Shown: positions 24,955-34,400 of the stretch, piece by piece
How positions within the stretch are numbered: the stretch's first letter is position 1
Layout of the letters: each line of letters opens with the position of its first letter
Assembly: GCA_037447655.1 (NCBI GenBank)
Contig: JBBHKE010001145.1
Span: 58,752-122,751 of the forward strand
Length of the DNA stretch: 64,000 bases
DNA from: Zygnema cylindricum
Lineage: Eukaryota > Streptophyta > Zygnematophyceae > Zygnematales > Zygnemataceae
Direction of reading: 5' to 3'
Notes under the pieces: model-generated
What the model was told of the DNA's origin: nothing
The model's input: only the letters and a program-made list of their open reading frames with translations
Database searches by the model: none
Program-made: the position numbers and the translations under genes

Positions 24955-25510
24955 AATCTCTTGAAAAAAAAGAGCCTAGACAGAGTAAAGAATACTAGGT
25001 CTATAGTACAGGCTTCTACTAGTCCTCTGAACCTTCTTATGTTGAGCTTGTAACCCGGAACCCGGAACCCTCTGAGAAAAGGCGAAATCTTCCAGATTCC
25101 ATCCAGTAGTGACTGCCGGTTGAAAGCTGCAAAGAAGACAAAAGAGGACAGCAAAGCGCAGCACTCTCCCTCCGCAGGTGTTACCCTGGTCAGGTTCTAA
25201 GGGACTCTCTCAGCCTGGTGCAGATTTGCAACCAAGCACCCCTGGTGCCGACCTCGTCAGTACACAGCCAAAAAGACAAAAAAGAACCCAGAGACAAAGG
25301 AACCCATTCGTCAAGACATGACAGAGAATCCCCAATTGTATCTACATTTTTTTAGACCTGGTATTGCGCATGGGACTGGTGAGGAAAAGGACTGGAATCG
25401 AGTCAAGACTGTTCCGACCAATGTCAATCTGACCAAACATCGTAACAATCTGAGTAAGAAACAGAGAGAGGGAAGGAGACAGAGAAAAAGGAGAGAAAGA
25501 TTGAGAACAT
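24955..25510 (-). other. THI4 3' regulatory module homologous to that of THIC
   Basis: Outside the aptamer, this region still aligns with the THIC 3' region at 33790-34400. Upstream of the aptamer are the shared words GATGTTTGGT/AATGTTTGGT, TTCCAGTC and ACCAGGTC(T/C)AAA. Downstream are GCTTTGCTGTCCTCT, TTGTCTTCTTTGCAGCT, CAACCGGCAGTCAC and a TCTAGG element before the T-rich end. The aptamer core is far more conserved than its flanks. Confidence 0.85.
25160..25249 (-). promoter_or_regulatory. TPP riboswitch aptamer in the THI4 3' region
   Basis: The minus strand carries the conserved TPP aptamer words in order: CCAGGGGTGCTT, CAGGCTGAGA, CCCTTAGAACCTGA and GCGGAGGGA, closed by a P1 stem GGCAC with GTGCT. 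TPP binding to this RNA class controls thiamin genes. It lies about 310 nt downstream of the THI4 stop. A pyrimidine-rich splice acceptor TTGTCTTCTTTGCAG ends at 25127, just past the aptamer. This fits the plant THIC mechanism, in which TPP frees an upstream donor and promotes splicing to a long, unstable 3' UTR. Here that mechanism is inferred. The sequence differs from the THIC aptamer at one of 90 positions. Confidence 0.97.
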
Positions 25511-25560
25511 GCAAGCTATCAAGCTGTTCTATCCAATTGTCTGCACTAATTTAGACATTT

Positions 25561-31500: not shown

Positions 31501-33340
31501 TGTATTGCAAGTCTACAAACGATGTGTTATTTAGTTCATATTCCAGTGTAACAATAGTGTAGTCACCTTCCAAGTTAAAATGTGTATTTATTTTTTCAGC
31601 TATACAAATGAAGTTTTTTGCTCTTTTTTTTGACTGCATAATTTATTTCAGAGTCCTTTAGAGGATCTCTCTCTGGTTTGAATCCGGTTCTACCTATGAA
31701 GGCTGGATGTTGCTACATTTAACCCTTAGCAGTGAACCACTTTCCATCTCCATAAAATTCATTATTATTATTATTTTCATTTATTTTGATTTTGTCATTA
31801 TATGCAGGTGATGAATGAAGGTCCTGGCCATGTTCCACTGCATAAAATTCCAGAGAACATGGAAAAGCAACTTGACTGGTGTAACGAGGCTCCCTTTTAT
31901 ACTCTTGGTCCTCTAACCACCGATATTGCCCCTGGATATGACCATATCACATCTGCCATTGGAGCTGCAAACATTGGAGCTTTGGGCACTGCACTCCTTT
32001 GCTATGTCACTCCCAAGGTAAGATTTTATACAGCTTTTTACAACGGACTTTTGTGTCTTTTCTTCAAGATAACAATATACTTCGGGAGATTACATGTAAT
32101 CAGACATTTTTTAGAAACTATAAAAAAGAATCTTCTTCCGAGATCTCCTTCATTTTGATTGTGTAAGCTTTGGTATCCACTTTTCCCTTAGTTACCCTCT
32201 TCTTGCTGTTCCCTTTTGTTTTTATCTTCTTTTCTTGTATGTACCTCTTTAATGCTGTAGTTTTTTTTCTTTTCTTTTCTGTTTTGTGTCAAACAGGAGC
32301 ACCTTGGACTTCCCAACAGGGATGATGTGAAGGCGGGAGTTATCGCATACAAGATTGCAGCTCATGCTGCAGATTTGGCTAAGAAACATCCTTTGGCCCA
32401 GAATTGGGATGATGCTCTCAGTAAGGCTCGTTTTGAATTTCGATGGAAGGATCAGTTTGCCCTTGCTCTTGACCCAACTACAGCACAGGTACTTCCCACT
32501 AATCGTTAACATCTATTAATATTCAATAACTGTTAATCTCTCTTAGGCAAGCATGCTGTTCCTGTTCTGTTAACTGTTCTATGTTGTCACATGCATAGTT
32601 CAAAGTGGAATATTGGCTGTTTCATTTTCAGTGAGATTTTACGTTGAAGTTAACATTTCACTTTGTCGTTTAAAGCTTGTCAACATATGGTGTAGCTCTG
32701 TCAAACAGGCGTTAATTGTATGAAGAAAGTATTAGGTCATGTATATCATAAGAAAATATCATAAATCCTATTAGAAAAAGTCTTAACTAAATTCAATGGC
32801 TTGCTATTGTTGGGCAGGCCCTTCATGATGAATCCCTTCCTTCTGATGGAGCAAAACTTGCCCACTTCTGCTCTATGTGTGGGCCTAAGTTTTGTTCCAT
32901 GCGAATTACTGATGATATCCGAAAATACGCGGCAGTGAAGGGCTATGGCACAGCAGAGGAGGCTCTTCAGGTAATATTTTGCTACTTTTGTCGCCTTTTA
33001 TTTTACGCTTTTGTCATGTAGTCTTCTTTCCTCTTTCGCTTGTCTAGTAAAGAAGTTTCTCTTTTGCTTTTTGCCTCAGATTGTTTTGTCTTAAGATAAA
33101 ACTTACAAAGCTGAGGGGAAAATGGCTATGTATTTCTAGTTTGACTTCTCGTGAGAGATCAAGGGCTAATAATTTCTTTTCCTTTAAAATATATGTTGGA
33201 TAATACAGAGGGGAATGGAGGAGATGAGTGCTGAGTTTTTGGCGGCCAGAAAGACATTTAGTGGTGAACAGGAGAAGGGTGGAGAAATATACCTTCCAGA
33301 ATCATATGTGGCTGAATCGTCGGCTGCAAAAACAATCTAA
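28513..33340 (+). CDS. THIC: Phosphomethylpyrimidine synthase (ThiC), plastid precursor
   Basis: THIC is a radical SAM enzyme with a 4Fe-4S cluster that converts aminoimidazole ribotide to HMP phosphate, the pyrimidine half of thiamin. Ten exons join in frame: 28513-28844, 29112-29239, 29396-29640, 29966-30154, 30475-30546, 30897-31217, 31808-32017, 32297-32488, 32818-32970 and 33209-33340, giving 657 residues. All introns are GT-AG. The first 70 or so residues are a transit peptide. Family blocks include [65 protein letters not shown] and [15 protein letters not shown]. The cluster ligands are C581-x2-C584-x4-C589 in CSMCGPKFC, followed by the short plant C-terminus. The start at 28513 is the first ATG (MAMSML). 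A 3' UTR intron (33379-33703) and a TPP riboswitch follow. Confidence 0.98.
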
Positions 33341-34400
33341 ATTAGGAACTAAGAATCTCTGAGAGTACAACCATATTGGTAAGGACTTTTCATGTTTTTA
33401 TCCTTTTTTTGGTTCCCATCGCTGTCCAATTTGAGGTCCTGGAGGAAGTTCGAGTGTAAGGAGGCCAACAGATCCAGAAATGATAGAGTCAAAGACACTT
33501 CTGCTTGGTTATGAACGAATAACTTTTGTTCTAGTATTTTAATACCAGAGGTTAGATGAAATGGTGCCTGATTTCTGTCTTTCATTTTTTTGTGCCCTTT
33601 TTATGGATATCATATTGAGGGTTATGTTGATTCTTGGTTCATTTTCTGGAACACGTGTATCCTTATGAGGAATACTAATCTTCATTTTTTTTTGCCATTG
33701 CAGACTTAATCGGGGCTCCTAAATATTCAAGAGGCTTAAAGACGGGAATTTCTTCTCTATGAAACGCCGGCCGTCTTTTGGCCGTTTCATAGTTCCTCGC
33801 CTTTCTAAACTATAGTTACTCATAGTTTCCATGTTCTGTAATAATGTTTGGTTGGTCAATACTGGTCAAAAAATTCAGACAGTCCAAACTGGTTTCCAGT
33901 CTTCTGCAAGGTCCAGGTGCAAAACCAGGTCCAAAGACAAACGCAGATAAGAAAATGGAAATTTCCGGACTTGTAGTGAGACTGTCACGGTATTCCTCGT
34001 CTTTCTACTTTTTTGAGTGGAGATGATGATGATAAGATCTTTTCTTTCCTTGGTTTTTTTTTCTTTTTTTTTCCTTTTGTCTTTTTGCGGCTGTGTACTG
34101 ACGAGGTCGGCACCAGGGGTGCTTGGTTGCAAATCTGCACCAGGCTGAGAGAGTCCCTTAGAACCTGACCAGGGTAACACCTGCGGAGGGAGAGTGCCGC
34201 GCTCTGCGCTTTGCTGTCCTCTCTTTTGTCTTCTTTGCAGCTCTCAACCGGCAGTCACGCACTGGAAGGAACCTGGAAGGTTTTGGCTTTTCTCGGCGGA
34301 AAATTCTGGACCACGTGGCAGACTGTCGACTGGTAGAAGTCTGTGCTATAGACCGCATATGCCTACCCTGTCTAGGTTTTATTTTTCAAACAAACTAGTA
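33341..34400 (+). promoter_or_regulatory. THIC 3' UTR regulatory region
   Basis: Just after the stop there is a probable intron, TTG|GTAAGG at 33379 to TTTTGCCATTGCAG ending at 33703, as in angiosperm THIC. The next exon leads through possible alternative donors (for example CTGTAATAATG near 33837) to the aptamer, then to the acceptor TTGTCTTCTTTGCAG ending at 34240. The final part (about 34360-34390) holds a T-rich putative polyadenylation region. Which donor pairs with the aptamer cannot be decided by eye. Confidence 0.75.
34109..34198 (+). promoter_or_regulatory. TPP riboswitch aptamer in the THIC 3' UTR
   Basis: P1 pairs GGCAC (34109-34113) with GTGCC (34194-34198). Between them are the conserved words CCAGGGGTGCTT, CAGGCTGAGA, CCCTTAGAACCTGA and GCGGAGGGA. 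P3 is short: CTTGGTTGC pairs with GCACCAGG around a loop AAATCT. It ends 42 nt before the acceptor AG at 34239-34240. In plant THIC, TPP binding changes 3' UTR splicing and lowers mRNA stability, and the layout here fits. Identical to the THI4 aptamer except for the last base of P1. Confidence 0.98.

Follow-up and report, generated by a model that had tools for sequence, protein, structure and literature searches.

A divergent THI4–THIC gene pair, most likely zygnematophyte, whose THI4 riboswitch was probably copied from THIC

The THIC gene of plants is described as carrying a thiamin pyrophosphate (TPP) riboswitch in its 3' untranslated region (3' UTR), with an aptamer past the stop codon, a splice acceptor downstream of it and introns in the 3' UTR (Bocobza 2007 and Wachter 2007, via PMC10226581). 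In the plant model, the aptamer covers a 3'-UTR donor at low TPP, giving a short, stable end; high TPP releases this donor, and splicing of the intron then leaves a long mRNA that is unstable (PMC10226581). Riboswitches of THI1/THI4 as well as of THIC have already been published for non-vascular plants, and a THI1/THI4 riboswitch is reported for chlorophytes too (PMC4260697, PMC10226581), that of Chlamydomonas THI4 lying upstream, in the 5' UTR (PMC12371167). Here we describe a 64-kb stretch of DNA (the window) in which THI4 and THIC, the genes for the two halves of thiamin (vitamin B1), stand head to head, each followed by a TPP aptamer. The locus resembles the plant THIC system in the order of aptamer, acceptor and 3'-UTR introns, and the THI1/THI4 systems in having a switch on the thiazole gene besides that on THIC. 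It differs from the former in that THI4 carries a near-identical copy of the switch, the two genes are head to head and the pairing between donor and aptamer is putative, and from Chlamydomonas in the 3'-UTR position of the THI4 switch. Neither copying from THIC nor gene adjacency is mentioned in the available portions of the reports on THI1/THI4 riboswitches (PMC4260697, PMC10226581).

We read the locus, with fair confidence, as a head-to-head THI4–THIC pair from a streptophyte alga that is most likely a zygnematophyte, with a 3'-UTR TPP riboswitch on each gene; the THI4 switch would have been copied from THIC, and TPP would control splicing. The genes and the elements at their outer ends are the following:

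25561..27046, minus strand: THI4 coding region, exons 27046-26429, 26252-25953 and 25728-25561, 361 residues
28513..33340, plus strand: THIC coding region, ten coding exons, 657 residues, near full-length THIC matches in the protein search
25149..25253, minus strand: TPP aptamer in the THI4 3' UTR, RF00059, 63.8 bits, E value 3.3e-10
34105..34209, plus strand: TPP aptamer in the THIC 3' UTR, RF00059, 61.8 bits, E value 1e-9
25127..25138, minus strand: acceptor TCTTCTTTGCAG behind the THI4 aptamer, 23 nucleotides (nt) past it, first exon base 25126
34229..34240, plus strand: acceptor TCTTCTTTGCAG behind the THIC aptamer, 32 nt past it, first exon base 34241

Gene models were drawn by eye and from homology, without transcripts. 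THI4 on the minus strand and THIC on the plus strand have start codons 1467 bp apart, a short-gap divergent layout that is found twice in the genome. The window THI4 belongs to the Thi4 family of Pfam (E value 1.8e-113), and for THIC the Pfam search was run on P0121, a 94% relative that stood in for the window protein. The conserved cysteine of the window THI4 is presumably the sulfur donor. The stretch around it consists of the same 13 residues as in the solved enzyme (PDB 1rp0), as in a single-turnover (cysteine) THI4. An Rfam search of the window gave two matches at the gathering score, both TPP (RF00059, gathering score 54.3 bits), and no other family reached its gathering score within the 64 kb. 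The aptamers begin 308 nt past the stop codon in THI4 and 765 nt past it in THIC. Both genes have the plant-type layout, with the aptamer past the stop codon and the acceptor behind the aptamer. A reading of the letters alone (the sequence-only reading) had proposed the divergent pair, two complete TPP aptamers downstream of the stop codons and a splice acceptor behind each, and all three proposals held: the start codons lie at the distance given, both aptamers score above the gathering score and both genes carry the same acceptor.

A search of the whole genome (352.8 Mb, 2,689 contigs) with RF00059 yielded at least six matches, all above the cut-off, two in the window and four on another contig, C797; because 49 of 9388 first-look candidates were scored, six is a lower bound. 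C797 holds a second head-to-head pair, THI4 on the minus and THIC on the plus strand, with the exon structure seen in the window, one aptamer behind THIC (63.2 bits) and three in tandem behind THI4:

C797 27759-27631, minus strand: THI4 aptamer A, RF00059, 62.9 bits
C797 27358-27234, minus strand: THI4 aptamer B, RF00059, 65.7 bits
C797 27207-27088, minus strand: THI4 aptamer C, RF00059, 59.0 bits

All six aptamers align to the full RF00059 model (1-105) and have CUGAGA and GCG; the L5 loop reads UAAC in both window aptamers versus UAAU in the four of C797. In the window, the similarity of the two riboswitches extends well beyond the aptamers:

25161..25269, minus strand: 109-nt identical run, THI4 copy, equal to THIC 34089-34197
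34089..34197, plus strand: 109-nt identical run, THIC copy, equal to THI4 25269-25161
24950..25446, minus strand: shared cassette on the THI4 side, approximate extent from alignments, outer parts about 70% identical
33838..34390, plus strand: shared cassette on the THIC side, approximate extent from alignments, outer parts about 70% identical

The identical run sits within a 220-nt match of 91% (E value 1e-84). Aptamer identity of the window THI4 is 0.96 to the window THIC and 0.89 to the C797 THIC, and 0.69, 0.63 and 0.62 to aptamers A, B and C of the C797 THI4. A short P3 stem and the L5 sequence UAAC are common to the two window aptamers and are both missing from that of the C797 THIC. By these comparisons the two riboswitches of the window are one cassette, and that of THI4 has its nearest relatives among the THIC riboswitches.

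Candidate splice donors were scored with base frequencies that are approximate plant values; 13 reference donors, two of them from predicted UTR introns, score 6.2–10.3 on this scale. The candidates and a further predicted intron are listed here (a slash marks the splice point):

25348..25357, minus strand: weak candidate donor upstream of the THI4 aptamer, CAG/GTCTAA, score 4.4, first intron base 25357
33917..33938, plus strand: candidate donors upstream of the THIC aptamer, CAG/GTGCAA at 33917 (5.9) and CAG/GTCCAA at 33929 (3.8)
33379..33703, plus strand: predicted first intron in the THIC 3' UTR, with its donor and acceptor both recurring in the C797 THIC (35853 and 36159)

By analogy with the plant model, TPP-dependent splicing of the 3' UTR is likely for both genes. 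At low TPP, the aptamer region would mask the donor that precedes it, and transcripts would have a short, stable 3' end; at high TPP, the unmasked donor would be spliced to the acceptor past the aptamer, giving a longer, unstable mRNA. One sensor would in this way switch off both halves of the pathway, whose transcription would start from a single intergenic region. Several observations weigh against this account. There is no good donor between the stop codon and the aptamer of the window THI4, where the conserved candidate scores 4.4; the best-scoring THI4 donor of the scanned stretch (5.4) sits inside the aptamer; and the C797 THIC has no GT at the place that matches the THI4 candidate. Pairing between donor and aptamer is ordinary when compared with 60 shuffles, being equalled by 29 of them for the window THI4 and by 46 for the window THIC, whose best donor-aptamer duplex lies away from the donor. 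Finally, the L5 loop of both window aptamers deviates from UAAU, the usual sequence in TPP aptamers (PMC5882874). As the upstream donor of the window THI4 is weak, it would be premature to transfer the THIC mechanism to THI4, and since THI4 is without the extra 3'-UTR intron predicted for THIC, the two 3' ends are built differently upstream of the aptamer.

In the C797 THI4, the best donor of the scanned stretch (27831, score 8.9) falls within a duplex with each aptamer, of 14 pairs for B and for C and of 12 pairs for A, and among the genes of the two loci it is the only strong donor within a 14-pair aptamer duplex. The best duplex of aptamer C is located away from this donor. Shuffles pair as well in 28 of 60 cases for the C797 THIC, and in 19, 18 and 9 of 60 for THI4 with A, B and C, respectively.

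The weak upstream donors of the window THI4, the best conserved at 4.4, together with its changed L5 loop, would also suit a relic, that is, a copied aptamer and acceptor without a working donor, which would leave THI4 free of TPP control at its 3' end. Yet its aptamer and P3 are intact, P3 being identical to that of THIC and matching or exceeding 990 of 1000 shuffles in folding; the acceptor is likewise retained, and a donor candidate, ACCAGGTC, is common to the window THI4 and THIC. Folding of the THI4 aptamer region as a single strand was uninformative (z 0.10). We consider a relic unlikely, and TPP-controlled splicing of both genes remains our preferred account.

The sequence-only reading had named an assembly join as the finding that would undo the adjacency of the two genes. 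As the pair on C797 is paralogous and repeats the layout on another contig, the adjacency in the window is no such artefact. Alleles or haplotigs are ruled out by the synonymous divergence (dS) between the loci, 0.43 for THI4 and 0.40 for THIC, and pseudogenes by open frames and low nonsynonymous divergence (dN, 0.017 and 0.032). When the window with 10 kb upstream of it was compared with the whole of C797, collinear matches were limited to THI4–THIC; the remaining matches comprise long ones to a Copia-type element and numerous short repeats. Between the two start codons lie:

27047..28512, no strand: intergenic region, candidate shared regulatory region, alignable with C797 29379-30927
27251..27330, no strand: best-conserved intergenic block between the two loci, from the alignment
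28059-28469, plus strand: predicted 5'-UTR intron of THIC, placed by eye, its donor also picked up in the donor scan

What we take to be G-boxes occur at 27173, 27279 and 27815 in the window and nowhere in the C797 region; a presumed evening element is found in C797 only, and a motif that we assume to be an I-box at both loci.

Conservation of the pair in other plant genomes, a check raised by the sequence-only reading, gave a divided answer. The sample comprised seven non-seed streptophytes with a named source and tag, scaffold or contig data among the best 120 rows of both protein searches; a common contig was judged by equal size, and tags give no gene orientation. In the fern Adiantum nelumboides, THI4 (L7F22_036110) and THIC (L7F22_036109) have consecutive tags and the same contig size, 1,577,605, and a second THIC (033138) lies on a different contig. 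In the alga Mesotaenium endlicherianum, the genes share one scaffold with protein ids 2531 (THI4) and 2530 (THIC), the gene names ME000161S01581 (THI4) and S01584 (THIC) possibly leaving room for up to two models between them. The copies among these rows are apart in 5/7 species (Spirogloea, Closterium NIES-53, Riccia fluitans, Calypogeia fissa and Selaginella), a count that fragmented assemblies make uncertain for some of them. In Riccia fluitans, two THI4 genes have nearby tags (R1flu_017420 and R1flu_017470) and THIC (R1flu_004722) is on another contig. Adjacency in two of seven seems too frequent for chance, which suggests that THI4–THIC is an old gene pair that was lost repeatedly and may predate land plants. 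The separation in the other five would equally be expected of a chance neighbourhood of this lineage, without functional meaning and with separate promoters, but the layout is repeated at two loci, and the genes are neighbours in Adiantum nelumboides and on one scaffold in Mesotaenium. The intergenic region is also alignable between the loci, which recent common origin could equally explain. We regard a chance neighbourhood as improbable.

With the second locus at hand, the history of the window THI4 riboswitch can be approached. The window THI4 matches the C797 THI4 at the end of the coding region and for 54 nt into the 3' UTR (25507-25733, 88.7%), and beyond this point there are only short matches, to the start of the 3' UTR and to parts of the aptamers. 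Aptamers A, B and C, in turn, show identities of 0.57–0.71 to the other three aptamers in all pairs. Conservation was then counted around the aptamers, with gap positions excluded. Between the window THI4 and THIC, the aptamer flanks are kept at 78 of 86 positions versus 160 of 231 in the outer parts (Fisher p 6e-5), while between the THIC genes of the two loci there is no such excess in the flanks (62 of 100 versus 143 of 247, p 0.55). Taken singly, the two flanks have 21/21 and 57/65 positions kept in the window pair, and 18/25 and 44/75 between the THIC genes. A point against our reading is that the aptamer tree has weak support at its deeper forks (63/66 and 43/52), so that the direction of copying rests on these sequence comparisons and not on the tree. 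As the window THI4 riboswitch belongs to the THIC lineage, the THIC 3' end probably overwrote that of THI4, and the simplest account is that this replacement took place after the two loci had separated. The locus would have been duplicated first; a THIC 3'-end cassette would then have been copied over the THI4 3' end inside the window locus, through inverted gene conversion or a comparable process. The centre of the cassette would have been homogenised again later, which fits the better preservation of the flanks in the window pair alone. That both riboswitches are instead ancestral, and alike merely through strong purifying selection on the aptamers, draws on the well-kept aptamer core of the two THIC genes (84/90) and on the published occurrence of both riboswitches in non-vascular plants (PMC4260697, PMC10226581), but is very improbable given that the window pair agrees fully or almost fully in P3 and the flanks, where the C797 THIC differs, and that the C797 THI4 aptamers are distant from all THIC aptamers.

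The three C797 THI4 aptamers have long P3 stems of differing sequence, each of which folds better than 1000 of 1000 letter shuffles. B and C are separated by 26 nt and resemble each other most (identity 0.72, tree fork 98/96); the array perhaps consists of a single-aptamer module (A, with an acceptor at 27611) and a double one (B and C, with an acceptor at 27038). Several TPP aptamers in one gene have precedents, with one triple among 213 representatives of tandem TPP riboswitches (PMC9481103) and two aptamers, in 5'-UTR introns, in NMT1 of Saprolegnia (PMC5882874); those of C797 differ in forming a triple TPP aptamer array in the 3' UTR of a green eukaryote. We tentatively suggest, at somewhat less than even confidence, that thiamin-pathway riboswitches act here as movable 3' cassettes, with one locus bearing an overwritten THI4 switch and the other a triple array with a possibly steeper, cooperative-like shut-off. 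Two paralogous loci in one genome, one with a copied switch and one with a triple array, constitute a natural experiment.

The lineage of the host was approached through protein trees. The THIC tree (33 proteins: 32 of the 120 listed matches and the window) groups the window with Mesotaenium and two Closterium strains (forks 93/89 and 82/83) and separates it from liverworts, ferns and seed plants. Two points temper this placement: Spirogloea, also a zygnematophyte, falls outside the window's THIC group without a firm position, and the THI4 tree (36 proteins: 34 of the 120 listed matches, the window and C797) puts the window near Mesotaenium weakly (80/76). In the latter tree, Closterium and Spirogloea take other positions, and no named row is closer to the window by path than Sphagnum and Riccia. 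Overall, the trees moderately favour a zygnematophyte alga, from the algal lineage nearest to land plants, over a bryophyte, and the bryophyte-like land-plant host that had been proposed earlier is disfavoured. Separately, P0001, a protein of 556 residues, reads as two consecutive THI4 domains.

That the arrangement would be new to plants, as the sequence-only reading supposed, stands in part. A THI4 riboswitch in non-vascular plants was already published; a search of open-access titles and abstract starts, with the founding plant papers outside it and reviews covered in part, gave among the papers listed no description of a THI4–THIC head-to-head pair, a copied riboswitch cassette or a eukaryotic triple TPP aptamer. 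Four features go beyond the earlier observation: the paralogous locus, the copied cassette, the triple array, and the neighbouring genes of a fern and another alga. The copied switch suggests a route by which an entire pathway could become subject to a common off-switch, and points to gene conversion as a way of spreading a riboswitch within a pathway. It offers a testable picture of pathway balance in a eukaryote, in which a single divergent intergenic region would turn both genes on and the same sensor sequence, present at either outer end, would turn them off.

Elsewhere in the window, pieces of a Copia-type retroelement (Pol_BBD, RVT_2) at 7132-20142 match C797 51495-57923 at up to 87%. 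An element of about 220 bp at 51677-51898 has several C797 matches in both orientations and resembles a small inverted-repeat element. At 58651-61893 there are exons of the large subunit of replication protein A, the C-terminal one adding a glycine-rich stretch with CCHC zinc knuckles.

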